Source: Methanocella paludicola SANAE
GTDB lineage: Archaea; Halobacteriota; Methanocellia; Methanocellales; Methanocellaceae
Direction of reading: 5' to 3'
Length of the DNA: 64,000 bases
NCBI RefSeq assembly: GCF_000011005.1
Contig: NC_013665.1
Location: 930,001-994,000, forward strand
Position 1 is the first letter of the stretch. Each line of letters begins with the position of its first letter. Below the pieces are notes generated by a model. That model had not been told where the DNA came from. It made no database searches and worked only from the letters and a program-made list of their open reading frames with translations. The translations under genes were made by a program, and so were the position numbers. This document shows, one piece after another, positions 19,189-46,289 of the stretch.

Positions 19189-19373
19189 AGGTTAATCACC
19201 TGCTAACCTAATCGTTATCCTTAGACTTTATTTGGTTATATAGTTATGTTTTATTAGAGAAGTGTGTTTGTATTGGGCGATTGCTTTGCGACTTTGGGGT
19301 CATTCAGAATTGAATTCTCCCAATTTTGTTAGTATAATTTATTTTAACTAAAGTAGTAATTATAAATCAATAA

Positions 19374-19520
19374 GCTTTTATATTAGATGTGCTTAATCAA
19401 TTGCTTAATGCCCATTGTCCAATGGCCATAATTTATCCATATGACGATATTTGTTGTAAAAACTCCAGGTCGAAAATGAATATCGTCTATTAGTGGGATG
19501 GCCACAGGTCAAAGACCTGT
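19374..19520 (+). promoter_or_regulatory. Promoter region of the radical SAM/glycosyltransferase operon
   Basis: The 364-base gap before the operon contains a TATA-like gcttttatatta at 19374-19385 and a perfect 7-bp inverted repeat ACAGGTC-aaa-GACCTGT at 19504-19520. The inverted repeat lies 33 bases before the first start codon and could be an operator or a hairpin in the leader. A strong ribosome site (GGGGGGTGA) follows at 19538-19546. Placement of the promoter is tentative. Confidence 0.4.
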
Positions 19521-19552
19521 ATTATTAAGCGGATAATGGGGGGTGACGATAG

Positions 19553-21118
19553 ATGAAAGAATTTGGAGTCATCGGCCTGGGTTCTGTTGGCTGGTCAGTC
19601 ATACATGGGCTTAGTCAATACTATTCTTATGCCGGTTACGATATTTTAAATGAATATAAATGGGAACCGATCTTAGACACAAAAATCGTTTTTATTTGTG
19701 TAGGAACCCCACTGGGAAATGATGGTAGATTAGATTGTAGCAATGTCCGAGAGGTCATAAGAAAATTATTCGAGGACCACTACAAGGGCGTCGTCGTTGT
19801 TAAAAGCACGGTATCTATCGGTTTCATGGATGCTGCGACTCGTGACTTTCTAGGAATACGCCTTGTCTATATGCCAGAATTTTTACGCGAAAAGAACAGC
19901 TACTCATGGTTTATCAAGCCTGACAGAATAGTTGTTTCTGGAAAACAAAAAGACATAGAAGAAGCGCTTTCCTTTTTCACATGGATTGAGGACGCGGTGA
20001 TTATTAAGACCGATTTTAGGAATGCTGAAACTGGAAAGCTGGCACATAATTCTTATATCGCGACGAAAGTCAGCTTTACGAATGAGATGGAATATATCTG
20101 TAAATCTGTTGGAGCTGATGCACATGATGTCATGAAGATCGTATCGACTGATCGTCGGGTCATGTGTAGCGAACATCTAACTCCTGGACTTGGGCCATAT
20201 GGCGGTAAATGTGTGCTCAAGGATATGAGCGAGTTAACTAATTCGACAAAAAGCGATTTTTTAATATCTGTACGTAATGTCAACGATCGATGTAAAACCC
20301 CGGAAACAATAAATAAGTTCCAGCCTGTAATCGTCATTATCCCGACTAAAAATAGGCCACTGAAACTCGAAAGGGCGCTCTCATCAATTATTGAACAGAC
20401 GTATCATCCCGAATTAGTAATAGTTATCAACGACCCAGTAAGTGACGCAACGGCCACTACACGAATAGTAACCTCAAAATTTACTCGAGATTTACCTGTA
20501 ATACAATTAGTTAATAATCGTTCGAGAAATATTTCGGGTGCCATTAATACCGGCCTTGAATATGTCCAGTATAGGTTTGATATTAAAAATTCTTTTGTAG
20601 CATTACTGGATGATGACGATTGGTGGGACAAGAAATATCTCGAGAATTGTGTAAAATTCGCCCATGAATACGATAGCGACTGGGTGATATCGGGGCTAAT
20701 TCGACACGACAACAAGTCTCCCGAAGGATGCTTCCAAGATATTCCAAATAACATTGAGGTATCCAAATTTTTGGTCACTAATCCCAACATTCAAAATTCA
20801 AACCTCTTCGTCAGGGCTAGTAAATTAATATCTATAGGAGGATACGATGAGAATCTCGTCAGTACGACAGACCGTGATATTTGCATTCGCCTTCTGCAAT
20901 CCAACAGTGTCCATTATACATTTCTCCGAAACCACCTGGTCCACCATGATGCATCGGATGACCCCGGGCGACTATCTCATCCCGGGTCATTGATTAAAAA
21001 GAAGGGGCTGAACGAGTTCTATCATAAGTACTCCTGTTTAATGTCGGGTGAGCAGAAGTCACAGTTCAAGGAGAGGGCAAAGATCCTATTTAAGGTTGAG
21101 ATACAGGAGACGGTATAA
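19553..21118 (+). CDS. Fusion: UDP-sugar dehydrogenase half with family 2 glycosyltransferase
   Basis: 521 residues. Residues 1-245 are the NAD-binding and central parts of the UDP-glucose/GDP-mannose dehydrogenase family: GLGSVG (8-13), VGTP, KSTV, and the catalytic Cys220 in GGKCVLKD with the usual Lys-Asp after it. The third domain, which binds the nucleotide sugar, is missing; instead residues 255-521 are a GT2 (GT-A) glycosyltransferase with a DDDDW metal site (353-357). The start ATG follows a strong ribosome site, and the gene ends in a TAATG overlap with the next. Oxidation without the UDP domain is questionable, so the first half may act on another carrier or be structural. It opens an AT-rich five-gene operon. 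Confidence 0.85.
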   Translation: MKEFGVIGLGSVGWSVIHGLSQYYSYAGYDILNEYKWEPILDTKIVFICVGTPLGNDGRLDCSNVREVIRKLFEDHYKGVVVVKSTVSIGFMDAATRDFLGIRLVYMPEFLREKNSYSWFIKPDRIVVSGKQKDIEEALSFFTWIEDAVIIKTDFRNAETGKLAHNSYIATKVSFTNEMEYICKSVGADAHDVMKIVSTDRRVMCSEHLTPGLGPYGGKCVLKDMSELTNSTKSDFLISVRNVNDRCKTPETINKFQPVIVIIPTKNRPLKLERALSSIIEQTYHPELVIVINDPVSDATATTRIVTSKFTRDLPVIQLVNNRSRNISGAINTGLEYVQYRFDIKNSFVALLDDDDWWDKKYLENCVKFAHEYDSDWVISGLIRHDNKSPEGCFQDIPNNIEVSKFLVTNPNIQNSNLFVRASKLISIGGYDENLVSTTDRDICIRLLQSNSVHYTFLRNHLVHHDASDDPGRLSHPGSLIKKKGLNEFYHKYSCLMSGEQKSQFKERAKILFKVEIQETV

Positions 21119-22065
21119 TGGATACTTATTGCCCCGACCTCTGGACTAGCCTCACCATCGATAACCAGGGAAACGTATACAGCTGCTGCCTGATCAAACC
21201 CGCACGCCTGGGAAATATATACCGGGCGAAACTCGAGAGTCTCGTTAACTATCCGGCGATCGTGGAAGAACGGCAAAATTCGTTGAACGGAAAATTACAG
21301 TGTTATGAGAACTGTAATTGGGTTAAAAAAGACGAATTATCAGGGGAACATATCGCCAGTAGTAAAGTCGAATATGATAAGATGTCTTATCTTCATTTGA
21401 ACTTTGGCGAGAGATGCAATATATCCTGTATCATGTGCAATCAAAGAAAGAGAGTATCGAAAAATCCATGGATACTGGACCCTGAAGTTCTCAAAAAAAA
21501 CATTAATTTGAAGCCATTCTCGGATATTGTGATACAGGGCGGTGAACCCCTTTTTATAAAAGAATGCCTTGAGTATTTAAGCTATCTCGGGAGTATCGGT
21601 AAAAAATACACCTTATTAACAAATGGTCTTTTGATCAATGACCTGATAGCCGATCAGCTTTCTATGGATGCGAAAATCGTCTGTATTTCCTTGAATGCGG
21701 CAACAAAAAATACGCATGAGTATGTTAATCGAGGCTCAAAATGGGACATTATACTGGATAATATAAAGAGGTTAAAAGAGGCCAGATCGCGTAATAATTC
21801 CCGTGTGGAGATATGGGGGAGGATGACAATAACGGCGTCGTCGCTCCATGAGATACCTCTATATTTAAAAATCTGGAAGACTCTTGGATTTGATCATATC
21901 AATTTTGGCTATGATCGCCAAACTGTGCCCTCGTACTTAAAAAGTAACCCACATTTTTATCAACAATTGAGAAAGGAGGTCACATCCGTACTGGCCAGGG
22001 CTGACCTATCGACGATGGATATCTATCGGCTTAAATATCTAGGCCTAGCTGAAGAAGGCGTATAA
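21118..22065 (+). CDS. Radical SAM enzyme with N-terminal SPASM-like cysteines
   Basis: 315 residues. The radical SAM signature CNISCIMC (Cys100, 104, 107) begins a partial TIM barrel with GGEP (about 142). Before it, residues 1-70 read like a SPASM segment: LTIDNQGNVYSCC (Cys23, 24), LGNIY, then CYENCNW (Cys62, 66) plus Cys5, enough for an auxiliary iron-sulfur cluster. SPASM parts normally follow the barrel, so this order is permuted. SPASM enzymes modify peptides or sugars by radical chemistry. The start overlaps the previous stop (TAATG), and the next gene starts 1 base after this stop, so translation is coupled. The substrate is not known. Confidence 0.8.
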   Translation: MDTYCPDLWTSLTIDNQGNVYSCCLIKPARLGNIYRAKLESLVNYPAIVEERQNSLNGKLQCYENCNWVKKDELSGEHIASSKVEYDKMSYLHLNFGERCNISCIMCNQRKRVSKNPWILDPEVLKKNINLKPFSDIVIQGGEPLFIKECLEYLSYLGSIGKKYTLLTNGLLINDLIADQLSMDAKIVCISLNAATKNTHEYVNRGSKWDIILDNIKRLKEARSRNNSRVEIWGRMTITASSLHEIPLYLKIWKTLGFDHINFGYDRQTVPSYLKSNPHFYQQLRKEVTSVLARADLSTMDIYRLKYLGLAEEGV

Positions 22066-22066
22066 T

Positions 22067-22867
22067 ATGGACTTATCCATTGTAATACGCTGTGGAGATG
22101 ACCGACGTGTATTTGACTGCATAAATAGCATCGACGAACATGTTGGCATAATCGTGGCGCTAAGCGAAAATGCGATGCTACAGAAAGAGCTCGAAGAAAA
22201 AAAGATCAAGTATTGCATTACTCCCCGACATAATCTATCTCAAACATCCAATATCGGGATTGATAAAGCAATATATGAGAAAGTCATACTAACCGATTCG
22301 GATACACAATTTGAACCCGGATGTATACGGGAATTATATCATGCGCTCGACCAATATCCAATCGCACGAGCACGAATTAATTTCGAGACAGATAGCGATA
22401 AATATTCATCGAGGCTTGTTTCCGAAGCCCGAGATTATGTAAATTCACTTCCTGTCGTTTATACTCCGGGGATCGCTTTCCGTAAAAGTATTGTAAAACA
22501 TATCGGCGGATTCATGTTCAACGACCTCGTGCCTTATGCCGTCGATGCCGATCTTAATTATCGTTTGGGCAAAACAGACCTTCCTGTCAAATTCATCGAT
22601 AATCTCGGATTAAAACATAATGCCGAGAGCATGAGGCATGACCTGAAGGCCGCATTCAGAATTGGTCGTGGGTGCGCAATTAGTTATCTGAGCTTAAGAA
22701 GGCTCAAGCAATATTCGAGTATACGATGGTATGACCTGAAAGGCGTTAAACTTCAAAGCCTGGGAGATGTCCTCATGAAGAAGGGGCTTATTGTCGCATT
22801 GTATCAGGTTATATGGGACGCATTTTACTGGACAGGATACGCAGGTCAAAGGCTGAGGGGCGTATAA
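22067..22867 (+). CDS. Family 2 glycosyltransferase
   Basis: 266 residues. The N-terminus is a GT-A Rossmann half (LSIVIRCGDDRRVFDCINSI, then NIGIDKAIYEKVILTDSDT) with the D-x-D metal site as DSDT at about residue 77-80. The middle (TPGIAFRKSIVKHIGGF) is typical of the GT2 acceptor-side region, and the C-terminal 60 residues are basic and amphipathic, suggesting attachment to the membrane. It transfers a sugar from a nucleotide donor, probably onto a lipid-linked or protein-linked acceptor. It is the third gene of the coupled operon, 1 base after the radical SAM gene and 3 bases before the giant fusion gene. Confidence 0.8.
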   Translation: MDLSIVIRCGDDRRVFDCINSIDEHVGIIVALSENAMLQKELEEKKIKYCITPRHNLSQTSNIGIDKAIYEKVILTDSDTQFEPGCIRELYHALDQYPIARARINFETDSDKYSSRLVSEARDYVNSLPVVYTPGIAFRKSIVKHIGGFMFNDLVPYAVDADLNYRLGKTDLPVKFIDNLGLKHNAESMRHDLKAAFRIGRGCAISYLSLRRLKQYSSIRWYDLKGVKLQSLGDVLMKKGLIVALYQVIWDAFYWTGYAGQRLRGV

Positions 22868-22870
22868 TCA

Positions 22871-25800
22871 ATGTCAGACTCAACCATAGGGCCTTCCGAA
22901 AAAGTGCGTTTCGATACGACACTATCCCTGATAAAGCAACAATACCCGGATTCTTATTTCAGGTTACTAGGCAGCGGCCATGAATCCGTTATCCTTACGG
23001 ATAATAGATTCACGTATAAAATATTCGATAACCCGGATTTTAAATACAAGTCTTTACTACAGGATTTTAAAATACGCTTCGCGAACTCGAAAAGATTTCT
23101 CTGTATCCTAGATATCCTGGATATTGATGGAATTCCTATTTTAAAATACGAGTATGAAGATTCCACAGAATATACGGGCGGTCACGAAGAGGAAATCATC
23201 GATTTTTTAGTCGAATGTAAGAAATATGGGGTCGTGTGCTGGGACGTCAAACCTCGTAATTTCCGAATTTTTAAGAATGGCTTACGATTCATCGATTATG
23301 GATGGGACATCAAGCCATACAATTTTAAAGATTTTGTTTTCATGGTCCAGCGCACCTATCTAAGTCTAAGATACCCTACAGCCACAAATTTTAAAGAGCT
23401 GGCGCACGAGGCCCTGACGAACTGGGAGCTTCACGAGCTGGATGGATTTCCCAATTTTTTTAATAAAGTCTATGAGCGTGTATTAAACACACAGATTGTA
23501 TGTGAATATCCAATTAAGTATGACCATAAAAAAGAGTATAGATCTATGATAGGTGATTTGCTGAATAAATTTGCGATGGGAAATGAACGTACTATCGAGC
23601 ATATATCCCCAGGAACGGAGCCTTTGGATATAGTCCCAAATTCAATTAATATGACCGGTCCATTAGATAACCTATCAAACTATGCTCCAGTCAATGTTTT
23701 CATATCCAATTGTGTGATAGATTTAAAGAAGGATCAACTGGTCGATTATATCACATCAGTTAAAAAATGTTTAGTACCAAATGGCCTTTTTATCCTAATA
23801 TTGCCAGATCAATTTTATTCGTATAGCATAGAAGAACTCCAGTTACATGATATTAGAACGTTGATAACGAAAGCCGGGTTTTCGATTTTAAGTGAGGACG
23901 AATCGCCCTATTATACGGAAATTTATGGAAATTTTAAAACCGACACATTAATATTAACCAACCGGTTGGCACAGACAGGAAATGAGCGAATAAGCCTGAT
24001 AATTAAAGCATGCTACCAGGATGGGGCTAACCTGGAACGGCAAGTTCAGCATATAGTATCACAGTGTAAGCAACCTCGATCATTCTTGGAAACAATCATT
24101 GTTATCGATCCCAAGAAGGATCATTTCCTGCGCCAGTTCGATGAGCCCTCTATCGATAAGACATATCGAGTGCTGGAAAATCTAAAGATGAGGTCGGTGA
24201 TTGATAATTATTATACTGCGCCTGATAACACAGAACAAATCCGGAAAATAAACCAGCGATGGTTTAACCTCGAATGCTCCAATTCACATAGTATTCAAAA
24301 TATACCAATAACACCTCAAATATACGCTTTTGAGCTAGCCCGGGGAGATTATATCCTGCAGGCTGATTGCGACGTTATGATTGGCCGCCGGGACCGAGAG
24401 CATGACTTTATCGGCGATATGATCTCCGCATTAAAAAATAACCCCGATGCAATATCGGTCTCTTTTAATATCGCTCACGATCCTGATTCAAAAGTCAACG
24501 ATTATACGTCTCCGGGTAATGGCGAGTATAAGCCCGAAGTACGATTTTGCTTATTCGACAAAGATCGTCTCTTCAAGTTAAGGCCGTTCCCGAATGAGCT
24601 TATTGATGGCCGGTTACGGTTATCTTGGTATCAATCGATTTATGAATTCCAGAAAAGGAATGGATTCGTGTCTCTACGCGGGGGAGATCCTAGATCCTTC
24701 TATGTCCATCCGCCCAATGAATATAAGCGTTATGAATTTACCTGGCTATCTATTCGGGAAAGAATTGGGTCCGGCAATATTCCGGACATCCAGTTTGAAA
24801 ATTTTGACCTCGTTGGCATCTATGAGGACTGGTGTTTGCCAAAGAGGGAAGAGCCCTATATCTTCATCATCTGCGGCCGAAATATCACTCCGGCAAAATT
24901 CTATCGCTGCTGGCAATCCTTAAAAAACCAATCCCGGCCATACTGGGGTGCGATCATCATCGACGACGCGTCGACAAATGGATTACCTGATTACATAGGG
25001 CTGCTGGTAAAACCATATGCAAGCAAAGTAACTTTCATCAAGAACCCCTCTCGAAAAGGCGTTCTCCAAAATATTTATGACGCAATAAAAAATTATTGTT
25101 CGAACCCCTATTCCGTTATCATCATTCTGGATGCCGATGATATGTTGATCGGCAATAGTGCGCTTAATACGATCCATCGCCATTATATCGCCGGAGCTGA
25201 TATGACCTCCGGCTCGACCATTCGAATGGATAAGGGATATTATGACTATAAACCGGATTTTGCACATCCGAGAAATCACCGAGGTGGCGATGTCTGGATG
25301 CATATCAGGACATTTAGAAAATATCTATTCGATAGGATTGCTCAGGATGATTTCATTAATAATGGCAAGTGGGTCGATAAATTCACCGAACTTACATATA
25401 TGGTCCCGATCGCCGAAATGGCAAGCAATCCTCATCACATTAAAGTGCCATTGTACCTGTGGGAACCTACTCAAGCGAGAAACAAATTACATTATAAAAT
25501 GAATCGGGAAACGAACGATTTTATTACGTCTAGGAAGCCCTATAATAAAGTAATAAAGCCTAGTATAACGGCCATATCTCCACCGGGGGAAATCATAAAT
25601 AGCCTTCAACCGGGGCAGCTTATTTTCATCCGCCATGCAGAACGAGTGCGCTCTGATGGAAGAAAAGATATTATATCAGATGATGTCCCGCTGACAAATG
25701 ACGGCGCAATTGATTGTAAAACCTTCGGAAAACATTTACCGATTAAGCTGGATCTTATAATTACGAGCCCGGCGCTCCGGGCAGTTCAAACCGCGGAAAA

Positions 25801-26188
25801 TATACGTGCAGGGAACGGTTCGGATTGTAAAATTATCCCGCTTGAAAGCCTGAGGCGATTAAAAATATTTAATTATAAGGAATGGAGACGATTAAAAAAT
25901 AAAAAGGGTTGGCATGGGACGATTCAAGAATGGGTAGCTGGTAAAATTAGTGATAAAGTGATTTATCCCTATGACTCAACTATAATTGAGATTATTAAGT
26001 CTTTAAACATCGAAATGGATAAACATCACTCGCAAAACATACTAGTAGTATCGCATAACCATGTGATTGACCTTCTTTATTATTACTATTTTAATTACTT
26101 AGCAAAGAACGTATTCCACCTGAATGGATTTGTTATTGATAGGAATGAAATTTTATCCGGCCATGATAAATTAGAGGTGGACCAATAA
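22871..26188 (+). CDS. 1105-aa five-domain fusion: kinase-like, methyltransferase-like, two GT2, histidine phosphatase
   Basis: Domains by residue. 30-210: protein-kinase-like fold with a glycine loop (GSGHES), a lysine in YKIF, a catalytic-loop-like CWDVKPRNF (123-131) and FIDYG (140-144) in place of DFG. 215-365: a class I methyltransferase-like segment without a recognisable SAM glycine motif. 370-655: GT2 with DCD (499-501). 660-880: a second GT2 with DADD (754-757). 910-1105: histidine phosphatase with RHAE (921-924) and a second His in SHNH (1061-1064). The combination suggests one protein that phosphorylates, glycosylates and dephosphorylates an intermediate of one pathway. I know of no described protein with this order. 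The stop overlaps the next start. Confidence 0.85.
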   Translation: MSDSTIGPSEKVRFDTTLSLIKQQYPDSYFRLLGSGHESVILTDNRFTYKIFDNPDFKYKSLLQDFKIRFANSKRFLCILDILDIDGIPILKYEYEDSTEYTGGHEEEIIDFLVECKKYGVVCWDVKPRNFRIFKNGLRFIDYGWDIKPYNFKDFVFMVQRTYLSLRYPTATNFKELAHEALTNWELHELDGFPNFFNKVYERVLNTQIVCEYPIKYDHKKEYRSMIGDLLNKFAMGNERTIEHISPGTEPLDIVPNSINMTGPLDNLSNYAPVNVFISNCVIDLKKDQLVDYITSVKKCLVPNGLFILILPDQFYSYSIEELQLHDIRTLITKAGFSILSEDESPYYTEIYGNFKTDTLILTNRLAQTGNERISLIIKACYQDGANLERQVQHIVSQCKQPRSFLETIIVIDPKKDHFLRQFDEPSIDKTYRVLENLKMRSVIDNYYTAPDNTEQIRKINQRWFNLECSNSHSIQNIPITPQIYAFELARGDYILQADCDVMIGRRDREHDFIGDMISALKNNPDAISVSFNIAHDPDSKVNDYTSPGNGEYKPEVRFCLFDKDRLFKLRPFPNELIDGRLRLSWYQSIYEFQKRNGFVSLRGGDPRSFYVHPPNEYKRYEFTWLSIRERIGSGNIPDIQFENFDLVGIYEDWCLPKREEPYIFIICGRNITPAKFYRCWQSLKNQSRPYWGAIIIDDASTNGLPDYIGLLVKPYASKVTFIKNPSRKGVLQNIYDAIKNYCSNPYSVIIILDADDMLIGNSALNTIHRHYIAGADMTSGSTIRMDKGYYDYKPDFAHPRNHRGGDVWMHIRTFRKYLFDRIAQDDFINNGKWVDKFTELTYMVPIAEMASNPHHIKVPLYLWEPTQARNKLHYKMNRETNDFITSRKPYNKVIKPSITAISPPGEIINSLQPGQLIFIRHAERVRSDGRKDIISDDVPLTNDGAIDCKTFGKHLPIKLDLIITSPALRAVQTAENIRAGNGSDCKIIPLESLRRLKIFNYKEWRRLKNKKGWHGTIQEWVAGKISDKVIYPYDSTIIEIIKSLNIEMDKHHSQNILVVSHNHVIDLLYYYYFNYLAKNVFHLNGFVIDRNEILSGHDKLEVDQ

Positions 26189-27030
26189 TGAGATGTAATT
26201 CTTATACGAAATTATCAGATTCGGCGTATAAGCTTACTAACCTTATAAGAATATCCAAACCAATTACAAAGATATTTGGACCAGAATATACTACTTCCCT
26301 CGATAACATTGAAATCGACATCACGTTCAAGTGTAACCTTAAATGTTACAACTGTGACCGTTCCTGCACACAAGCGCCTAGTGAATTGACGATGTCGCTA
26401 GAACAAATAAGAAAATTCATCGATGAGAGTATTTCGAATGATAAGCATTGGTCCCGGATACGTGTTCTGGGCGGCGAACCGACATTACATCCGGATATCG
26501 ACAAAATTTTAAAAATTTTACTTGACTATAAAGAGAATTATTCGCCCACGACCTGGCTTGAACTCACCACAAATAATTTTGGTCCTGAGGTCAATAGAAA
26601 ATTGCTAAAGGTGCCAAGGAAAATATACGTCAATAACACCCGGAAAATGGGTCGATTCCAGAAAAAATTCGAAGCCTTTAATCTTGCGCCTTGCGACAAT
26701 AGGATATATGCATTTACCGATTTTACTAATGCGTGCTGGATAACAAATGATTGTGGTATGGGATTAAACCGTTATGGCTACTATCAATGTGGTGCGGCGG
26801 GATCTATTGATCGAGTATTTGGCATGAATATTGGTTTGAAGAAATTGCCAGTGTATCAATCTGAATTTTACGATCAAAAAACGAATTTATGCTCTTTATG
26901 TGGCCATTTTGCACGACGTAGATTTGTGCCAGGAAATTTGTGTAAGCCTGTAAATGGAGAGCCAAAATCAAATAGATGGATATTAGCTTATGAGAATTAT
27001 TCGAAGCAACCAACATTAAGCTTATATTAA
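26188..27030 (+). CDS. Second radical SAM enzyme of the operon
   Basis: 280 residues. The signature is CNLKCYNCDRSC (Cys49, 53, 56, and an extra Cys60), followed by GGEPTLH (about 95) and further barrel strands (LELTTNN). The C-terminal third has Cys in ACWITNDCG, YQCGAAG and a pair in LCSLCGHF, which could hold one auxiliary cluster. Proteins of this build sit in several glycan-biosynthesis and radical-SAM/glycosyltransferase loci. The ATG overlaps the stop of the giant fusion gene, so it is the last gene of the translationally coupled series. The following gene is convergent, 10 bases away. The substrate is unknown. Confidence 0.8.
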   Translation: MRCNSYTKLSDSAYKLTNLIRISKPITKIFGPEYTTSLDNIEIDITFKCNLKCYNCDRSCTQAPSELTMSLEQIRKFIDESISNDKHWSRIRVLGGEPTLHPDIDKILKILLDYKENYSPTTWLELTTNNFGPEVNRKLLKVPRKIYVNNTRKMGRFQKKFEAFNLAPCDNRIYAFTDFTNACWITNDCGMGLNRYGYYQCGAAGSIDRVFGMNIGLKKLPVYQSEFYDQKTNLCSLCGHFARRRFVPGNLCKPVNGEPKSNRWILAYENYSKQPTLSLY

Positions 27031-28125: not shown

Positions 28126-28869
28126 TTATACCTGTGATAATAAATTTCTAATAAGCATGTTCACTTCATTCCGTCCCAGCTTCCCATACCTCTCGATTGA
28201 TGTCGCCTGTTCCGGGATACCGGCTAAATGCTCACGTAAAAAGCTTAGCCCGGCTAATTTCTCGCCCAGATAATACAGGTCTATGTCTCTTCCGCCATGA
28301 CCGGGGTCTATTAATGCAAGGACATCGGCATAATCCTTTACTAATTTTCCTCGCCCCCAATCCATATCCCGATAGAGCCCGTTCTCGATACGATACCTTC
28401 GATCATGGGTTGCCTTAAGTTTATACAATAGTAGCAGTGTCCTTTCGGGTATACGTGCACTGACGCTCCTTACCGGTATTTCTTTGTACCTGCCGACGAT
28501 CTCATCAAAACTAAGCTCTTCCGGTCTACCCAGGAAATTACATGGGTCGGATGTCGTACCAAAGTCGATAATTATCTCCCCATAGTCCGTTCTTTTAAAC
28601 ACGGAAGTACCGCTCTCATCGGTATACGGCTCATACTCTCTTTCCGAAGTTAAGAAATGCTTCAAGCTACTACGCGTTTCACTATTGGTGATGAGGTCGA
28701 TGTCTATGGACTTGAGCGTATCGTTATAGGCATATACGGCCCATCCCCCGACCAGGAACGTATTCTGTATCCCTTTCCTGCCTTCCCGCTCTTTGATCCA
28801 GCGTAAGATCATGTCCAGCTCATCAAGGGATATGTCGAATATTCGGGGATCTACATCATAGGGCTGCAT
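28126..28869 (-). CDS. AbiEii-like nucleotidyltransferase toxin
   Basis: 247 residues. The start is a DNA-polymerase-beta-type nucleotidyltransferase: LVGGWAVYAYND (GG motif, about 40-51) and SIDIDLITN (metal-binding D-x-D, about 55-63), then a third acidic residue in IIIDFGTT. The rest is helical with KLKATHDRR (about 152) and a DYADVLALID segment, as in AbiEii/MenT-like proteins, which inactivate tRNA by adding nucleotides. It starts 14 bases inside the end of the AbiEi-like gene, the normal order of this type IV toxin-antitoxin pair. It is the likely growth-arrest effector in phage defence or plasmid maintenance. Confidence 0.75.
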   Translation of the reverse strand: MQPYDVDPRIFDISLDELDMILRWIKEREGRKGIQNTFLVGGWAVYAYNDTLKSIDIDLITNSETRSSLKHFLTSEREYEPYTDESGTSVFKRTDYGEIIIDFGTTSDPCNFLGRPEELSFDEIVGRYKEIPVRSVSARIPERTLLLLYKLKATHDRRYRIENGLYRDMDWGRGKLVKDYADVLALIDPGHGGRDIDLYYLGEKLAGLSFLREHLAGIPEQATSIERYGKLGRNEVNMLIRNLLSQV

Positions 28870-29869
28870 ACTTATCGACCATCATTTTTGTCACGTCCTT
28901 ACTGCTGTACCCCTGGCCGGCAATGTCGAGCAATGTCTGGCCGGGCGATACGACCTTTACATCCTCAAGTTCTTTTGAGTCGCTAAAGACGTCCCTGTCG
29001 GGCAGATATAGCCTGACAGTTACTCCATCATTCGTAATGTCCTCCGACAATATGTCGATAAGCCGGCCGATATCCTGATTTTTCATGTACGCATAAGCCG
29101 TATCGCCACGGACTGAATAACCGGTGTAAAGGCCAGCAGCCGTATAGCTTGTGAAGGAGCAATCGATATTTTCAATTTTTGTGACACGCGAGATGTACCG
29201 GGCGGTATCAAAAGCGCTCTTACCGCGCAACTTTATTTCCCTGATGAACAGGTTTTCAAATGGGCGCTCCCAGGCGATGCCGTTTAACAGCTTGTTCATG
29301 TCGCTGATGACGATCAAATCGTCTTTCCGCGCGGCTATGCCCTGCGATAACAAGGCCGAGATCGTCTTATGGGACCATCCATACGAGACATGCTCTTTAA
29401 GCGATATCTGCCGTATCGATGACATTTTTTCTTTTAACAGAGATGATATGACCGCCCATGACTTCTTTGACGTGAACTTGATGCCTGCAGACGGCTTCGC
29501 CGCATCCACTTCTGGCATTTTAACACCAGGCGGTAGTAAAAGAACATCGATGCCGGCAGCCTTTGCGACCGCTTCTTCCAGGGGGGCCGATACTTTGCAG
29601 ATGATGATATAGCGATAGCGATACTTATCGCTGCGCTTGCTGATCAGATCTTTATATAAATTGATCACGGATATCGATACGATCGAGAGCTTTTTTTTCA
29701 CCTCGATAATATACCTGTCAGTGCTGTCCTCTATGGCGAGATCCGGTTTCAGGCGGATGGTGTCGTCCTTGATGAGGAATTCGGGCTTCAGGTGGGCATT
29801 TGCGCTTAGATGGAGCTTTTGACGTAAGAATTCCTTGAGTGACTCGTAGAGTTTTTCATTTTCAGGCAT
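28856..29869 (-). CDS. AbiEi-like antitoxin/repressor with a nuclease-like N-terminal domain
   Basis: 337 residues. Residues 25-115 resemble a restriction-endonuclease-like fold: KPEFLIKD, LKPDLAIE and YIIEVKKKLS give the P-D-x(n)-E-x-K pattern. Residues 130-215 hold a helix-turn-helix (EHVSYGWSHKTISALLSQGIAARKDD), and the C-terminal part (SPGQTLLDIAGQGYSS) is the AbiEi antitoxin end. AbiEi proteins bind inverted repeats in front of their own operon and neutralise AbiEii. The upstream gap has such repeats (29874-29960). The N-terminal domain is not typical of AbiEi; it may be an inactive DNA-binding remnant or a working nuclease. The downstream toxin gene overlaps it by 14 bases. Confidence 0.7.
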   Translation of the reverse strand: MPENEKLYESLKEFLRQKLHLSANAHLKPEFLIKDDTIRLKPDLAIEDSTDRYIIEVKKKLSIVSISVINLYKDLISKRSDKYRYRYIIICKVSAPLEEAVAKAAGIDVLLLPPGVKMPEVDAAKPSAGIKFTSKKSWAVISSLLKEKMSSIRQISLKEHVSYGWSHKTISALLSQGIAARKDDLIVISDMNKLLNGIAWERPFENLFIREIKLRGKSAFDTARYISRVTKIENIDCSFTSYTAAGLYTGYSVRGDTAYAYMKNQDIGRLIDILSEDITNDGVTVRLYLPDRDVFSDSKELEDVKVVSPGQTLLDIAGQGYSSKDVTKMMVDKYAAL

Positions 29870-36897: not shown

Positions 36898-37926
36898 TTA
36901 TTTATTTATTGATATTACTCCGCTTTCTAAACCCCTCATTAATAATTCTTTATATGAATTATAAATAGTATAAGCTTCACCTTTAAGTGGATAATCTTTA
37001 ACTCTTATAAACTCATCCCTTACGTGATTAGGGACACCAATCAAATCATCAATTGTAATAATCTCTATATTAGGTTCATTTCTTAAAATACGCCATTCTT
37101 TATCAGTAGACTTATTTTTATCTAAATAATTTATATCTTGTCTAGTCATTCGAGGCCATAAATAATAGGCTTTTTTATATGATTTTTGTGATAAGAAATA
37201 ATACTTAGTAAGATACATTTCGCCAACTGCTATATGACCTGCTCTTTGAGAGGATTCTGTAAAGTTCCTTTTATTTCTACCAGTTAATTTTATTACGTAC
37301 CCATTTTTTAATACTGTTGATCTTTCTTTGGCAAAATTTTCCCAACTATTATGATAAGTATTTTTAAATTTGATTTCAAATATCGTATACATAGATTTTA
37401 ATTTGTTATTAATAAATAAATTCAATTTTTCTTTGTCATGAATTGCATATATTAAATCTTTAAGTTCAGATAAATCATCAATGATAAGGTAAGTACCGTT
37501 CTCATATAACGATGCAAAATATGCCATACCAAATAAATCTTCTTGTATTTTATTTTTACCTTTTCTTAAATAATATATTCCAATGATCCCATTTTTAACT
37601 GCACCTAATGCATGATGAAACCTCTGATATTGAGCGTTTCCAGACGACCCTCTATTTAATGCATCCGTACCTTCTAAAGCTATTATGGGCCGAGTATTTA
37701 CCTTTTTACCATTATATTTACATATCCAATTTTCTTTTATAGTCCAACAAGCATCACATGAACCATAAGCAGTCCTATCTACCCCAAAGGTCAATCCGTC
37801 ATCACAAAATAGTCTCATATCATCGTTGCTAGATTCCGGAAATATTCTCAAATCTAATCCATTAATTGTGTACCCTAACTTATCAATAATTTCTCTTTTA
37901 ATAATTTCATCACTCGATAAAGACAT
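36898..37926 (-). CDS. Restriction-endonuclease-like protein of the RM operon
   Basis: 342 residues, last gene of a four-gene minus-strand operon, starting 1 base after the 359-aa gene ends. The N-terminal 110 residues hold acidic and lysine-bearing strands (DDMRLFCDDGLTFGVDRTAYG, then PIIALEGTDALNRGSSGNAQYQRFHHALG) in a nuclease-like order; the E of ALEGTD and the conserved QYQRFHHALG helix recall type II enzymes such as those of the PD-(D/E)XK class. No zinc finger. The protein is AT-rich in coding sequence, as are its partners. The endonuclease role is inferred mainly from operon position and is moderate. Confidence 0.5.
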   Translation of the reverse strand: MSLSSDEIIKREIIDKLGYTINGLDLRIFPESSNDDMRLFCDDGLTFGVDRTAYGSCDACWTIKENWICKYNGKKVNTRPIIALEGTDALNRGSSGNAQYQRFHHALGAVKNGIIGIYYLRKGKNKIQEDLFGMAYFASLYENGTYLIIDDLSELKDLIYAIHDKEKLNLFINNKLKSMYTIFEIKFKNTYHNSWENFAKERSTVLKNGYVIKLTGRNKRNFTESSQRAGHIAVGEMYLTKYYFLSQKSYKKAYYLWPRMTRQDINYLDKNKSTDKEWRILRNEPNIEIITIDDLIGVPNHVRDEFIRVKDYPLKGEAYTIYNSYKELLMRGLESGVISINK

Positions 37927-37927
37927 G

Positions 37928-39007
37928 TTATAACCTTGGTATCATATCTATTATCTCTTTATACGTTAATCTATTGATAAATTGTACTATATCCCATGTT
38001 GAAGATATTTTCTTATGATTATATTCAATATAAAAATCATTGAATTCATCATTTGTTAAATTGGCTATTAAATAATATTTAAAATAATTTGATATCCAGT
38101 CATCGTATTTACGATGATATTTTTCATCGATGATAAAATTTTCAGTTGGTTCTATAGCTTTTAATTTATAGTTATTATCTATATAAATTAATCCGTAAAA
38201 TTTCTTTGACAGTTTGATTTTTGAAGTATAAATTTCATAACCTTTACAAAATAGTCCAGTACTTAGGTATTTATCTAATTGTTTTGTCATTTCTTTTGTA
38301 CTTGTCTTAGCTTCACCAACTATAAAATTATTATCTTCTATTATATATTCATTACATAAATTTTTAAAACCAAGTCTAATTAGTGATAGTTCTAAAATGT
38401 TAATACAATTAAGAGGAATATGATAAGTATTTATAAAGTTATTATATTTTATAGATCTATACCCTCCAAAGTCGGGGGTTCCATAAGAATGGCTTAGTGG
38501 GATCTGTGTTTCCACGATATATTTTTCCTTTTTAAAATATTCACATGTTAAATATTCTAAAAATGGTTCCATGCCATTTCCGTTTTTAGATTTTTCTATT
38601 CTTTGTATGATGTAATCAGTAGAATTAACTCCTATTTTTTCGTAAAAAGTCTTTAATTTATTCTGAAGCTCTAATTCTCTATTAAATTCTACCGGAACTA
38701 TTATCTTGTCATTATTAAACAAGTATTTTCTTCCTAGGTACAAGTTATATGGGGTATTTTTTAATGTAGTATTATCAAATAATCCGGTAACAAATTTATA
38801 ATCTAGAGAGTTATAAAATAGTTTAGTAAGCCCTTTAGGTGTAAATGGAAAGACTGGATTGTCTAGGTAACCAGCACCTGTTATAGATGAAAAAATAAAT
38901 GCAGAAAATTTATCCATTTTAATACCGGGCCCTAATTCAGTATTAACTATTTTAAAATTAAAATTTTCTTTCATTATTTTAATAAATTTATCAGCATTGA
39001 TTTCCAC
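37928..39007 (-). CDS. PD-(D/E)XK-type nuclease of the RM operon
   Basis: 359 residues. A core near the middle reads YGTPDFGGYRS (P-D with a Gly-rich strand) and further on NFIVGEAKTS (E-x-K), the two halves of a restriction-nuclease active site. The preceding helix (FLEYLTCEYFKKEKYIVETQIP) also matches nuclease folds. The gene overlaps the end of the 508-aa methyltransferase by 17 bases and runs directly into the 342-aa gene. It is a plausible endonuclease or nuclease subunit. The gene is one of the most AT-rich in the window. Confidence 0.65.
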   Translation of the reverse strand: MEINADKFIKIMKENFNFKIVNTELGPGIKMDKFSAFIFSSITGAGYLDNPVFPFTPKGLTKLFYNSLDYKFVTGLFDNTTLKNTPYNLYLGRKYLFNNDKIIVPVEFNRELELQNKLKTFYEKIGVNSTDYIIQRIEKSKNGNGMEPFLEYLTCEYFKKEKYIVETQIPLSHSYGTPDFGGYRSIKYNNFINTYHIPLNCINILELSLIRLGFKNLCNEYIIEDNNFIVGEAKTSTKEMTKQLDKYLSTGLFCKGYEIYTSKIKLSKKFYGLIYIDNNYKLKAIEPTENFIIDEKYHRKYDDWISNYFKYYLIANLTNDEFNDFYIEYNHKKISSTWDIVQFINRLTYKEIIDMIPRL

Positions 39008-40517
39008 TTTTTATTTCACCCATAATTTTATTTAACTTCTTTATAGATAAACCATCTAAATTAATCTTATATTCATTATAGTATAACTCAATCAGTAATT
39101 TTGATACAAGCATATCATATATTTTTGGGCAGTCATCTATATTACTTTTATTAATTATGTCTTCTAATAATGATTCTAATGAATATTGCTTGTTATATGT
39201 ATGCCCAAAATATTCTCCTCTTTCGAATGTTAAGTATAAATCCGATTTTGGTGAAAATTCCGACCAATTAATATTATATGAATTACTCACTGTACTTTCA
39301 ATATTAATATTTATTAATTTGAATCCATTCCTTTTAAAAACACTTAATACATCTTGCCAAATATCGAATTCTTTATTATGGAAACAAATCGTAAACTTTT
39401 TTCCATTTTTTAAGATTCGCCTACCTTCTTTTAGTGACATTTCAAGAAGTTTTATAAACTCTTTTTTACCTTTATCTTGTACAGGATTTATAATAACTTC
39501 TTCCCTATTATCATAGTTTAAACCTAACCACGAATTCCATACTAGCGATAGCTCGGAATATTGGATTGCTTCACCATATGGCGGATCCGTAATGATATAA
39601 TCAACTGATTCATCCTCTAGTCCAGTATTAAATGAAGATTGATTAAAAAATTTATAATCGCCAATTTTTTTCTTTATTTTAGATTTTAATAATTTTTTAG
39701 ATTTTATTACTAAATTTACCCTATCCAAATATCTCATCCAAACATTCTCTTCAAAATAATCATCAGGTATCCAATAGTTATTAACACCTAATGGTCGGAC
39801 GTTTTCACTTTTCAGTTTACTTGTATGAAGCAAGGTATTTGAAAATGCTAATAAAAATAACTTTTCATATTTTAGATTATTGCTCTTTATGCAATGCAAT
39901 AATTCCGATAAGGCATATAGGTTTTTATTAGTAAATATATCAGTTATTTTTCGGACACCTTTATAAGAAAATCTATCTTTATAAAACTTTAACGGAAAAT
40001 TATTTTCTGGAACCCATTTGTCAATCTCATACACAATATTTAATTGATCTTTCTCTTGATTTGTTAATTCTCTTTTTATTTTTGTTTTACCGCAGTTATA
40101 ACAATAAAATACACCAGACTCTTTACCTTTAAACTTAGGCCCAATGTTTATGTGGTCAATTACTAGATTCTTTCCACAATAAACACATTTATCTACTACA
40201 GCATATAATTGATTAAATAAAGGCTCTAGTTCTCCTTTTATTAACCCTAATTCATCAATAAATTCATCTTCATTGAAATCGCATGTGATTGTATTTTCCG
40301 TGATAAAAATGGCTATCGGATTTAAATCATATCCAATAAAATTCCTATTTTGTGATATAGATTCTAAAGCTGTAACACCACTACCGACAAATAAGTCAAC
40401 AACTATATCTCTTTCTTTAGAATTAGTTGTAATTAATTTATTAATTGGCCTCCATGGCTTTCTTGCCCAATATTTATGGATTTTATATATTTTTGAAAAA
40501 TCACTTGATGTAGCCAA
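38991..40517 (-). CDS. DNA methyltransferase (amino-methylase) with zinc-ribbon insert
   Basis: 508 residues. The SAM-binding loop comes first (DLFVGSGVTALES, motif I, about 45) and the catalytic motif DPPYGEAIQYSEL (motif IV, about 313) much later, so the order is class alpha and the target is N6-adenine or N4-cytosine. Between them lies a zinc ribbon (CVYCGK ... CYNCGK, about 110-145), which may act in target recognition. The N-terminus KIHKYWARKPWRP recalls DUF1156-type methylases. The gene starts 3 bases after the end of the previous methyltransferase gene; two methylases in one operon suggest methylation of an asymmetric site by separate strands. Confidence 0.85.
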   Translation of the reverse strand: MATSSDFSKIYKIHKYWARKPWRPINKLITTNSKERDIVVDLFVGSGVTALESISQNRNFIGYDLNPIAIFITENTITCDFNEDEFIDELGLIKGELEPLFNQLYAVVDKCVYCGKNLVIDHINIGPKFKGKESGVFYCYNCGKTKIKRELTNQEKDQLNIVYEIDKWVPENNFPLKFYKDRFSYKGVRKITDIFTNKNLYALSELLHCIKSNNLKYEKLFLLAFSNTLLHTSKLKSENVRPLGVNNYWIPDDYFEENVWMRYLDRVNLVIKSKKLLKSKIKKKIGDYKFFNQSSFNTGLEDESVDYIITDPPYGEAIQYSELSLVWNSWLGLNYDNREEVIINPVQDKGKKEFIKLLEMSLKEGRRILKNGKKFTICFHNKEFDIWQDVLSVFKRNGFKLININIESTVSNSYNINWSEFSPKSDLYLTFERGEYFGHTYNKQYSLESLLEDIINKSNIDDCPKIYDMLVSKLLIELYYNEYKINLDGLSIKKLNKIMGEIKSGNQC

Positions 40518-40520
40518 GCT

Positions 40521-41576
40521 TTATACCTCTTTCTTTAATATGATGCAGTAATGGTGCAAAATATTACTAGCCCAACTATAGGGGTATCCATATGGTGATA
40601 ATTGTATTTTATCCTGTATCCAAATCTTCTCATCTTTAAGTACATATTTATTAGACAATGACTTAGCAAGGTCCCATGCAAGCGGGTATAACTTACCCCC
40701 TTTCTTAATGTTTTTAACGATAATAACAATATAAGCTCCTTTTACAAGCTTATCAAATATATCTAAATAAATTTTTGTTAATTCACCCACGAATTGGTCA
40801 TAATCAGCGATATTGCCAAGATCATTGGATAAATCGGAATACTTAACATCGAGTCCGTTGCCTTCCCTTGTTTTTTTAAATCCATCTGTACTCCTGTTTA
40901 AAACATCCCAATATGGTGGGGAAGATATACAAAAATTAAATTGTTCATCATTATATAATTCTTTAATATTTCTTGCATCTGCGTTGTATATATTTTTATA
41001 GAATTCAGGTACGCGCTTTAAAATAATATCATAATATTTTTTATTTAACTCAGTACCATATCCAATTCTATTCGTTCTCTTACATGCAACTAACGTACTT
41101 CCTATACCAGCAAAAGGATCAATTACCTTCATGCCTTCCTTCGTAAAAAAAAGTATGAAGTCTTCGATCATTGTAGGGGAATACGTTGCAGGATGATCAA
41201 CACAATTTTCGCAAATTTCTTGCTCTTCTTTTAAATCTTTTTGTAAAGCGTTGAAAACGAACCAACTGCATGTAAATTTTGTCCATTCTTTACCCGTCAA
41301 ATAATTTAATGAATTTTTAATATCATAAGCGCCTTGGTCTATATCCAGTATAATAGCATGAGCAGAGTCTATATTTCCATTTGGATCATATAGTTTGACT
41401 TTATCCCATTGACTAATGAACCTTTTAGGGATATTATCTTTATAATTATTATATATATTATTTAGCATTAATTTAGCTTTTTCATTAGATTTGTCATCTA
41501 GACAAGGAACGATTGATTTATTATTCTTATAATAGAAATAATATTCTTGTACATCTGAAATTAATTTTTTTTGCAT
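40521..41576 (-). CDS. Second DNA methyltransferase of the RM operon
   Basis: 351 residues. Motif I is DPFAGIGSTLVA (about 152) and motif IV is SSPPYWDVLNRS (about 215); the S-P-P-Y-W form is typical of N4-cytosine methylases, although N6-adenine cannot be excluded. The N-terminal 120 residues are helical and not part of the catalytic core. It is the first gene of the minus-strand operon, with the other three genes following at 3, -17 and 1 base. Its upstream gap (41577-41732) is AT-rich and probably carries the promoter. Confidence 0.85.
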   Translation of the reverse strand: MQKKLISDVQEYYFYYKNNKSIVPCLDDKSNEKAKLMLNNIYNNYKDNIPKRFISQWDKVKLYDPNGNIDSAHAIILDIDQGAYDIKNSLNYLTGKEWTKFTCSWFVFNALQKDLKEEQEICENCVDHPATYSPTMIEDFILFFTKEGMKVIDPFAGIGSTLVACKRTNRIGYGTELNKKYYDIILKRVPEFYKNIYNADARNIKELYNDEQFNFCISSPPYWDVLNRSTDGFKKTREGNGLDVKYSDLSNDLGNIADYDQFVGELTKIYLDIFDKLVKGAYIVIIVKNIKKGGKLYPLAWDLAKSLSNKYVLKDEKIWIQDKIQLSPYGYPYSWASNILHHYCIILKKEV

Positions 41577-41732
41577 AAGACCCCTGCTAATCTTTAGACG
41601 TAATACCTTATCCTCTCTAATCAGATTAATAGAATTTATGTCTTTTGTATATGCGAGGTGTAACTAATATGGAACTGACTTAAAATTATCTTCTCTAATA
41701 ACTGTTCTTATAGAATGGATCTAATATCAACT

Positions 41733-43034: not shown

Positions 43035-43037
43035 AGA

Positions 43038-45341: not shown

Positions 45342-45398
45342 TTAATATACTCTTGCTATTGCATTATATGTAATTGAAATAAAATAAAAAAATGATGA

Positions 45399-46289
45399 TT
45401 ATCTAACATATTCTCGATATGCATCTGCAAAAACTGATTTAATCACTTCTCTATTACCCTCAAACATCCCTTCGTCGATGTTCAATCGTAGGACTGCTCT
45501 TTGTCTATCAATCCCTAATACATCTATGTTACTATTATTAAACTTACTTTTTAATACCTCTAAATCAGATGAACGGATATGGACTCTTAAGAACCTTCTC
45601 ATAGGTATAAACGCTACAAAATTATTAGCCCTATTATTCTGCGTTAATCCAATGTAATAGACATTATATTTTAATGTCAAATTTTGATCAATTTCCTTTA
45701 ATATTTCATAACATTGATCCACTAATTTCATTGAAGTTAACGAGCTTTTATCCTCCCAATAAGACCTATCAACAGGTTCGCCTTTTTCATTATCTTCTTC
45801 ATCAGTACCTAAAGAAGCTTCATCTAATACTTTTGTAAAATTTAACGTTAATGTATTACCTATTTGAATAGCGTTTAATTGTAATGCTATAATTGGTATA
45901 GCTCCATTTAAAAGAGATATTACATTTAAAAATCTGGATGTTATATCTTCAGCCACAATTACTGCACAGTGATCGTAATCTCTGTATCTATTTTGCTCAA
46001 TATCCCAATATTCAATGGCTCTAATTATGTGACTTTCATCGATTTTGCCAAGCATAAGCTCGACTTCATATCTTTTATTATTATCCGCATCTTCAAAGAG
46101 AAGGTCTAGCCTACCAGCTTTTGGTTGCATTCTCTCTTTATCTTTTAATATAAGTTCACCGAGGCCAAGGATTGATGGATCATTAGCAATAAGATCTCTT
46201 ACCCAAAATTCATCAAATAATGGATTATCTTTAATTAGGATTTTCGAACCCTTTACATAAATTAAATTAGCATTTGCTAATTGAGACAT
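45399..46289 (-). CDS. EndoMS/NucS-like PD-(D/E)XK protein
   Basis: 296 residues. After an N-terminal region (SKILIKDNPLFDEFWVRDLIANDPSILGLGEL) comes the nuclease-like core AGRLDLLFED...YEVELMLGKIDESHIIRAIEYWDIEQNRYRD, where the catalytic order D-x(n)-E-x-x recalls DUF91/EndoMS proteins; the lysine normally following Glu is replaced by a Met-Leu stretch, so activity is uncertain. The C-terminal part (DVLGIDRQRAVLRLNID) is a separate alpha/beta domain. It is 57 bases upstream of the McrB gene in the same direction and probably belongs to the same defence cluster. Confidence 0.7.
   Translation of the reverse strand: MSQLANANLIYVKGSKILIKDNPLFDEFWVRDLIANDPSILGLGELILKDKERMQPKAGRLDLLFEDADNNKRYEVELMLGKIDESHIIRAIEYWDIEQNRYRDYDHCAVIVAEDITSRFLNVISLLNGAIPIIALQLNAIQIGNTLTLNFTKVLDEASLGTDEEDNEKGEPVDRSYWEDKSSLTSMKLVDQCYEILKEIDQNLTLKYNVYYIGLTQNNRANNFVAFIPMRRFLRVHIRSSDLEVLKSKFNNSNIDVLGIDRQRAVLRLNIDEGMFEGNREVIKSVFADAYREYVR

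Follow-up and report, generated by a model that had tools for sequence, protein, structure and literature searches.

A compositionally foreign operon of Methanocella paludicola that may direct the assembly and modification of a short glycan

Five adjacent genes of Methanocella paludicola SANAE (NC_013665.1) may form a single horizontally acquired cassette for the cytoplasmic assembly and modification of a short glycan or glycoside, a reading to which we give about an even chance; the sugar chain produced would probably be phosphorylated and chemically reworked. The cassette is apparently conserved and mobile, being common to unrelated methanogens with a version in marine bacteria, and it is apparently undescribed in the literature searched. 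A new biosynthetic pathway is therefore likely still to be worked out, within a system that joins a kinase-glycosyltransferase core to exchangeable tailoring enzymes in both groups of organisms. The predictions are that an unannotated kinase domain phosphorylates a glycan, that a UDP-glucose dehydrogenase (UGDH) works without its UDP-binding domain, and that two radical SAM (rSAM) steps take place on sugars.

Results and discussion

Organisation and composition of the operon

Coordinates refer to the window, the whole 64,000-nt stretch of DNA analysed, and are collected in Table 1. The five ORFs (19553-27030) are intact, lie on the forward strand and contain no internal stops. From P0001 to P0005 they are joined in order by an overlap of 1 base, gaps of 1 and 3 bases, and a further overlap of 1 base, so the same-direction, tightly coupled arrangement described in the initial annotation is correct. 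Because every reading frame is open, decay of the operon through frameshifts is ruled out.

Table 1. Features of the operon and its upstream region (window positions)
Feature	Position	Strand	Extent	Assignment
AT-rich upstream region	19189-19552	+		candidate promoter; one TATA-like TTTATA at 19377
P0001 ORF	19553-21118	+	521 aa	
P0001 mini-UGDH	19553-20302	+	aa 1-250	UDPG_MGDP_dh N and central domains (Pfam/NCBIfam)
P0001 GT2A	20318-21118	+	aa 256-521	GT2 glycosyltransferase fused to mini-UGDH
P0002 ORF	21118-22065	+	315 aa	radical SAM enzyme, N-terminal SPASM/twitch domain (Pfam/NCBIfam)
P0003 ORF	22067-22867	+	266 aa	GT2-type glycosyltransferase, invariant TDSDT motif
P0004 ORF	22871-26188	+	1105 aa	
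P0004 kinase domain	22871-23605	+	aa 1-245	protein-kinase fold (profile, AF2/Foldseek)
P0004 methyltransferase remnant	23606-23968	+	aa 246-366	degenerate; homology to intact domain in relatives
P0004 GT2B	23969-24886	+	aa 367-672	divergent GT-A glycosyltransferase; QxDxDVxIGR, GG(D/N), HPxN motifs
P0004 GT2C	24887-25585	+	aa 673-905	GT2 glycosyltransferase domain (Pfam)
P0004 histidine phosphatase	25595-26188	+	aa 909-1105	branch 1, His_Phos_1; RHA, LRA, SHNH catalytic motifs
P0005 ORF	26188-27030	+	280 aa	second radical SAM enzyme (Radical_SAM)

The composition of this island is foreign to the host. Its GC content is 40.3%, against 56.0 ± 3.1% in 60 background windows of equal size taken from 20 stretches of the host genome, and its tetranucleotide distance, suggested at the outset as a check for transfer, is 0.525, beyond the background maximum of 0.303. 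GC3 in the island is 0.36-0.46, compared with 0.69-0.84 in several flanking genes. The AT-richness originally claimed relative to both flanks is sharp on the left, where the flank is normal (55% GC), but less so on the right, where the flank (27-34.5 kb) is itself atypical at 46% GC.

Domain content of the encoded proteins

P0001 begins with what had been recognised as half a nucleotide-sugar dehydrogenase, and this description holds. The truncated enzyme, here called mini-UGDH, shares with the UDP-glucose 6-dehydrogenase family the NAD-binding and central domains and the catalytic Cys, Lys and KST motifs (Cys220 and Lys162 are kept in P0001), but it differs in lacking the UDP-binding end and in being either fused to GT2A or a stand-alone protein of ~300 aa. 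The C-terminal UDP-binding domain was absent from P0001 in the Pfam/NCBIfam search, from the cassette relatives as judged by length and alignment, and from 56 of 57 complete viral relatives. Unexpectedly, most of the phage relatives retrieved have this short form, generally with radical SAM genes close by, and tailed phages often carry the two together. Mini-UGDH constitutes a distinct form. The host encodes a separate full-length UGDH, and the truncated protein is therefore not its housekeeping enzyme.

P0002 and P0005 both score above the Radical_SAM cut-off and carry CX3CX2C (Cys100/104/107 and Cys49/53/56 respectively), as expected of the two radical SAM enzymes originally assigned. Cys5, 23, 24, 62 and 66 are also invariant in P0002, and the C-terminal cysteines 183, 189, 201, 235 and 238 are conserved in P0005. 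Over nearly its full length P0002 follows the domain plan of the NF033640 twitch radical SAM proteins, with an N-terminal twitch/SPASM domain ahead of the radical SAM domain, though at 88.6 bits against a curated cut-off of 170 it is not a member of that family. Among its nearest solved structures is BlsE, the cytosylglucuronate decarboxylase, a radical SAM enzyme with a uronic acid as its substrate; the likeness is confined to the rSAM core, and the BlsE model gives 32 bits against a cut-off of 400. Identity with viperin (pVip) was rejected (NCBIfam model 42 against 180 bits; the PADLOC match is limited to the rSAM core), and weak rSAM matches were set aside as single-domain similarities.

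The four glycosyltransferase (GT) domains proposed for the operon are GT2A, P0003, GT2B and GT2C, GT2B having been settled by its predicted GT-A fold (AF2 pLDDT 88, Foldseek E 2.5e-7). No PDB sequence matched the GT2B or P0003 profiles. Like GT2B, the kinase domain of P0004 is missed by Pfam and supported by AlphaFold/Foldseek (pLDDT 84, E 7e-8); a profile search against the PDB (E ~1e-5) agrees that what had been called kinase-like has a protein-kinase fold. The Gly loop, Lys50, catalytic-loop Asn130 and DFG-type Asp142 are invariant. The HRD-type Asp is present in P0004 (CWDVKPRN) and in L037, with Asn in the other nine aligned relatives; since the catalytic Asp is thus replaced in most of them, their kinase domain may not be a phosphotransferase. 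The methyltransferase-like domain is degenerate in P0004; its counterpart in the relatives of 1732-1736 aa is an intact methyltransferase carrying the SAM-binding motif GCGRG. The histidine phosphatase is confirmed by its His_Phos_1 match and catalytic motifs, and is encoded by a separate gene in L014, L041 and L042.

Recurrence in methanogens and marine bacteria

The initial annotation proposed asking whether the set recurs in conserved order, and it does: adjacencies are conserved across several methanogen families, and a reduced form occurs in Gammaproteobacteria. This recurrence strongly supports a dedicated, transferred, glycan-related system. Profile searches with the cassette components were made over 393 Halobacteriota genomes, and four component profiles recovered the same four or five of them, all methanogens, from different families; the genes were always clustered, rather than occurring singly and in unrelated places. 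The P0003-type GT, confined to archaeal type I cassettes, was found in 5 of the 393 genomes, and the P0005-type rSAM in the same five and as a contig-end fragment in a same-family relative. A strong P0002-type rSAM is present in four of the five, the fifth cassette being broken by a contig end, and GT2B occurs in 7 of the 393. If independence is assumed, the probability of the P0003-type GT falling by chance on exactly the five type I genomes is ~1e-11. In the gene maps, mini-UGDH-GT2A adjoins the P0002-type twitch-rSAM in four genomes, and GT2B, or a protein ending in it, is directly followed by the P0005-type rSAM in five. The G294 cassette also carries a carbamoyltransferase and an epimerase, and its second mini-UGDH is in pieces; one P0005-type copy (L014) is a pseudogene. 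With P0004 as sole query no relatives were found in genome contigs, viral contigs or 40 sampled related genomes; distant ones were reached by tblastn of plasmids and with a concatenated two-row profile.

A sister operon (type II), with the order mini-UGDH / GT-GT-KIN-MT-GT-GT / HP / SLOG, is found in five further methanogens (G182, G389, G451, G512 and G463), and its central protein is a 1,735-aa GT-GT-kinase-methyltransferase-GT-GT megaenzyme. Both radical SAM enzymes are missing from type II operons, as judged by profiles over the 393 genomes and by the type II gene maps, so they are not a core element of every version. In Salinivibrio, Photobacterium and Vibrio the set is GT2A / GT-KIN-GT2B-GT2C / unknown / P0005-type, with a methyltransferase added in the latter two, while a tight operon in Pseudoalteromonas combines a GT-KIN-GT protein with RibA-NADAR, AsnB-like and N-acetyltransferase genes. 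Across the loci, modules fuse and split freely between proteins. P0005-like genes of Desulfobacteraceae (L017, L019, L020) occur without the cassette, and matches in Sinorhizobium and a jumbo phage were set aside as single-domain similarity only. Trees of GT2B and P0005 give good support to the type II and the bacterial groups, but their deeper nodes are poorly ordered, with long branches joining one another, and no direction of transfer between domains is therefore read from them.

Proposed function and its alternatives

A modified glycan, as first suggested, is consistent with the component enzymes; the acceptor might, as was also suggested, be a lipid or a protein, and the product might be one that is both glycosylated and radical-altered. 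In the pathway we favour, the sugar chain would be built by the four GT domains, and a sugar hydroxyl would be phosphorylated by the P0004 kinase domain, by analogy with the capping of a growing glycan by WbdD and O7 ORF6. In the sister architecture the intact adjacent methyltransferase, degenerate in P0004, could methylate that phosphate, and the histidine phosphatase might edit or remove it. Mini-UGDH would oxidise a sugar at C6, with the fused GT2A presenting the sugar in place of the lost UDP-binding domain, and the two radical SAM enzymes would then rework sugar carbons, for example by decarboxylation, epimerisation or deoxygenation, a chemistry guessed from distant relatives. Several observations speak against this pathway: export and polymerisation genes and Wzt_C are not linked to the cassette, a coiled-coil ruler was not detected, most relatives have Asn for the catalytic Asp of the kinase, and type II operons do without the radical SAM enzymes. 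It is tempting to go further and to regard mini-UGDH with twitch/SPASM radical SAM enzymes as an undescribed sugar-modifying module, in which oxidation is followed by radical rearrangement of a sugar that is not carried as an ordinary UDP-sugar; such a module, common in tailed phages, would have been built into methanogen kinase-GT cassettes to give a new class of phosphorylated glycan. This extension is less likely than not, but if true it would provide a function for a gene pair that recurs in phage genomes.

The most serious competitor, possible although distinctly less probable than the cytoplasmic glycan, is a soluble specialised metabolite such as an aminoglycoside-like pseudo-oligosaccharide, whose units the GTs would join, the radical SAM enzymes deoxygenate or epimerise, and an APH-like kinase and phosphatase protect and deprotect, with tailoring varying by strain. 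In its favour, the cassette is mobile and patchily distributed, its tailoring partners change from locus to locus (a carbamoyltransferase in G294; RibA-NADAR, AsnB-like and N-acetyltransferase proteins in Pseudoalteromonas; a SLOG/LOG-like protein in type II), surface-glycan machinery is lacking nearby, and APH(2'')-Ia is one of the top fold matches to the P0004 kinase. Those matches are, however, led by protein kinases, GT2 enzymes usually make polysaccharides and not small antibiotics, the cassettes contain no transporter, regulator or aminocyclitol synthase, and no extracellular product is known.

A surface or S-layer glycan, exported by machinery encoded elsewhere in the host, seems unlikely. 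Such glycans typically involve UGDH-type enzymes, GTs and epimerases, similar shuffling of modules is seen in ABC-transporter-dependent O-antigen assembly (PMC11231755), and Wzt_C proteins are encoded above cut-off elsewhere in the genome in six of nine carriers. Against this, Wzt_C is absent or sub-threshold in G000 (sub-threshold), G294 and G182, the loci examined contain no linked flippase, polymerase or exporter, and an oligosaccharyltransferase is absent nearby.

A role in defence or counter-defence, through macromolecule modification or an anti-phage compound, is very unlikely. R-M/McrBC genes lie near the cassette within the window, PglZ and BrxL near that of G295, and a type I methyltransferase and UvrD helicase near that of V. 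hannami, and tailed phages commonly carry mini-UGDH with radical SAM enzymes; but mobile cargo often shares islands, no obvious defence genes surround the G310, G294, G182 and Photobacterium loci, and PADLOC gives no system for the five proteins, only generic radical-SAM similarity to viperin. Least probable of all is RiPP-like maturation and glycosylation of a peptide made elsewhere: SPASM/twitch radical SAM enzymes typically mature peptides, but the operon has no spare coding room for a precursor (a distant one being possible), all-against-all comparison of ORFs of at least 45 aa revealed no extra conserved small ORF between loci, and no RiPP NCBIfam model scored above cut-off.

Comparison with polymerase-terminator systems

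Among characterised proteins the proposed cytoplasmic glycan cassette has two points of comparison. WbdD of Escherichia coli O9a brings a kinase fold and a methyltransferase to glycan assembly beside GTs (PMC3482155), and P0004 resembles it in this combination. Unlike P0004, WbdD lacks a GT domain but possesses a coiled-coil ruler, and an exporter pathway is linked to it (PMC3482155); it is not among the 50 Foldseek matches listed for the P0004 kinase domain. A crude heptad scan revealed no coiled-coil ruler in P0004, L041 or the Salinivibrio proteins, in which the domains are directly juxtaposed.

The nearest characterised architecture is that of the polymerase-terminator ORF6 of Klebsiella pneumoniae O7, compared here by domain content, which has the order MT-kinase-coiled coil-GT2-GT2 (PMC11231755). 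Proteins of the P0004 type differ in their order, kinase-MT-GT-GT(-HP), in having no coiled coil and in the extra histidine phosphatase; the methyltransferase is degenerate in P0004, the partners are a truncated UGDH and two rSAM enzymes, and no ABC transporter is linked. The kinase of O7 ORF6 is likewise hardly recognisable from its sequence, and in related systems the modules are redistributed among proteins (PMC11231755). What O7 ORF6 and P0004 have in common is the presence of kinase, methyltransferase and two GT2 modules in one large protein, and the pairing of a kinase and/or methyltransferase terminator with GT2 modules is seen in P0004 and its relatives as KIN-MT-GT2B-GT2C.

Organisation of the operon and domain content of its proteins

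The genome of the host is a single contig of 2,957,635 bases, and it encodes McrA. The initial annotation had described a tightly coupled five-gene operon at 19553-27030, and this was borne out: the five reading frames, encoding P0001 to P0005 (P1 to P5), lie on the same strand with junctions of -1, +1, +3 and -1 bases. All are open and free of frameshifts, so the operon is not decayed.

Coordinates of the operon genes and of selected genes at related loci
Feature	Location	Strand	Remark
P0001	19553-21118	+	open reading frame
P0002	21118-22065	+	open reading frame
P0003	22067-22867	+	open reading frame
P0004	22871-26188	+	open reading frame
P0005	26188-27030	+	open reading frame
Carbamoyltransferase within the G294 cassette	L037:13230-14795		Pfam Carbam_trans_N/C
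Start of the G295 type I cassette	L038:4275		
SLOG/LDcluster4 (LOG-like) gene	L041:11523-12095; L042:7965-8537		also in L087, L088, L089, L090

According to Pfam and NCBIfam, P0001 comprises the N-terminal and central UDPG_MGDP_dh domains followed by a GT2 glycosyltransferase, the UDP-binding C-terminal domain being missing (hence mini-UGDH); P0002 is a SPASM-containing radical SAM (rSAM) enzyme, P0003 a GT2, P0004 a GT2 with His_Phos_1, and P0005 a second rSAM enzyme. Two domains of P0004 escape Pfam, one N-terminal and kinase-like and the other spanning residues 367-672. A profile of the N-terminus matched PDB entries of protein kinases (E about 1e-5), and the best Foldseek matches of its AlphaFold model (pLDDT 84) were protein kinases (PAK1, PknB, CK2), with APH(2'')-Ia among them. 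Region 367-672 is confidently modelled (pLDDT 88) as a GT-A glycosyltransferase. The intervening stretch is homologous to the intact methyltransferase of larger relatives (L041 1001-1115, Pfam) and has lost the SAM-binding motif.

As judged from sequence, catalytic residues are kept wherever they can be assessed: the Cys, Lys and KST motif of the UGDH; DxD-type motifs of the glycosyltransferases; the CX3CX2C motif of each rSAM enzyme, along with its auxiliary cysteines; RHA, LRA and SHNH in the histidine phosphatase; and the Lys, Asn and DFG-type Asp of the kinase domain. At the HRD-type position of that domain, P0004 and L037 have the Asp and other relatives an Asn.

Recurrence of the gene set

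A profile of GT2B, a glycosyltransferase domain of P0004, matched 7 of 393 Halobacteriota genomes, including the host itself. The window-like set with rSAM enzymes P2 and P5 (type I) occurs at loci in G294, G295, G310 and G041, the contig of G041 ending within the locus. In the G294 locus, P5 comes after a P4-like protein with 46% identity over 1095 aa; next are a carbamoyltransferase and an epimerase, and then P3, P2 and mini-UGDH-GT2A. G295 and G310 encode the kinase-fold domain (KIN) and GT2B separately, and also have mini-UGDH-GT2A, P2, P3 and P5. Searched independently across the 393 genomes, P3 was found in the five type I genomes and in no others, a coincidence with a probability near 1e-11 if independence is assumed; P5 in the same five and, as a fragment where a contig breaks off, in a same-family relative; and P2 strongly in four, in all of which it adjoins mini-UGDH-GT2A. 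GT2B, or a protein containing it, precedes P5 in 5/5. These five genomes belong to five different families, and all carriers encode McrA.

A compact type II operon, carried by G182, G389, G451, G512 and G463 and partially by G435 and G456, encodes a stand-alone mini-UGDH, a megaenzyme of 1732-1739 aa (GT2A-GTy-KIN-MT-GT2B-GT2C, where MT is a methyltransferase), a histidine phosphatase and a SLOG (LDcluster4) protein. The P2, P3 and P5 profiles found no match in the type II carriers G182 and G389; G389 and G295, of one genus, carry different cassette types. The SLOG gene closes the operon in every locus that extends far enough.

Salinivibrio, Photobacterium and Vibrio encode GT2A, GTx-KIN-GT2B-GT2C, an unknown gene and P5, the latter two genera also a methyltransferase. 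The unknown gene is conserved, of unassigned family (L010:17559-18329, L015:11556-12317, L016:11535-12305); its product begins GNGPG...RFNQP, recalling some sialyltransferase-like proteins, and its 3' end overlaps a convergent neighbour by about 70-80 bases. The archaeal MAG locus L014 has two sets, which include a separate phosphatase, P2 and the fusion proteins KIN-GT2B-P5 and GT2A-GTx; one P5 copy is a pseudogene. A tight four-gene operon on a Pseudoalteromonas plasmid (L011:14720-21242) has the look of a related cluster for a specialised metabolite; it encodes GT2A-KIN-GT, a RibA-NADAR fusion, an AsnB-like protein and an arylamine N-acetyltransferase. Thus the modules keep together as a set while their fusions vary freely, and the homologues do not occur only singly, the finding that would have told against a dedicated system.

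A profile scan of viral contigs with P0001 recovered 61 loci (L092-L152, IMG/VR), and 56 of the 57 complete relatives are of 236-272 aa and without the UDP-binding domain. In these redundant loci, chosen by two peptide patterns, an rSAM-motif reading frame occurs in 41/60 (19/33 distinct sequences), such a frame with a twitch motif like that of P0002 at its N-terminus in 27/60 (13/33), and an rSAM gene directly adjoining the mini-UGDH in 31/60 (11/33), these being raw neighbour counts without matched control neighbourhoods and the rSAM calls resting on motif and partial BLAST support. The pairing suggests a long-standing functional partnership between P0001 and P0002; no paper on it was found in a text search of the literature.

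Composition and genomic neighbourhood

The suggested check of tetranucleotide content for signs of transfer placed the operon outside the background range, given by sixty 7.5-kb windows of the host genome. Its GC content is 0.403 (background 0.560 +/- 0.031, minimum 0.484), its tetranucleotide distance 0.525 (maximum 0.303) and its TETRA correlation 0.42 (minimum 0.50). Loci in G294, G295, G310, G041 and G389 also have GC below their measured flanks, in G389 by only a small margin on one side. These measurements mark the cassette as accessory and probably acquired by transfer.

A function in defence is a weak rival, since defence genes lie near the cassette in three neighbourhoods (the window, G295 and V. 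hannami) but not in others.

A probable restriction-modification/McrBC island lies at 36898-46289 in the window, a very AT-rich block (mostly 25-43% GC) that encodes N6/N4 DNA methylases, McrC and McrB-like AAA proteins; neither Pfam nor PADLOC gave a match for three of its genes. Likewise unmatched in both are two overlapping genes on the minus strand at 28126-29869, which by eye look like a toxin-antitoxin-like pair, a nucleotidyltransferase-like protein of 247 aa and its 337-aa partner. In G295, the type I cassette has PglZ and BrxL genes (BREX-type; L045:680-4480) about 10 kb upstream.

Proposed function and comparison with known systems

A coiled coil and a linked exporter were sought in the cassette and neither was found; in this it differs from the ABC-transporter-dependent class, membership of which is therefore not claimed. 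The best functional analogue found is Klebsiella O7 ORF6, a single chain that carries two GT2 modules together with a methyltransferase and a kinase that sequence does not reveal, the latter two placing a methyl-phosphate on the glycan end; in the systems grouped with it, modules of this kind have been reshuffled among proteins (PMC11231755). WbdD places the same terminal methyl-phosphate on O9a polymannose (PMC3482155). Read by this analogy and from the retained catalytic residues, P0001 would couple oxidation to transfer in one enzyme, P0002 and P0005 would be radical enzymes that rework sugars, and P0004, like O7 ORF6, may both build a glycan and cap it with phosphate, with a phosphatase attached.
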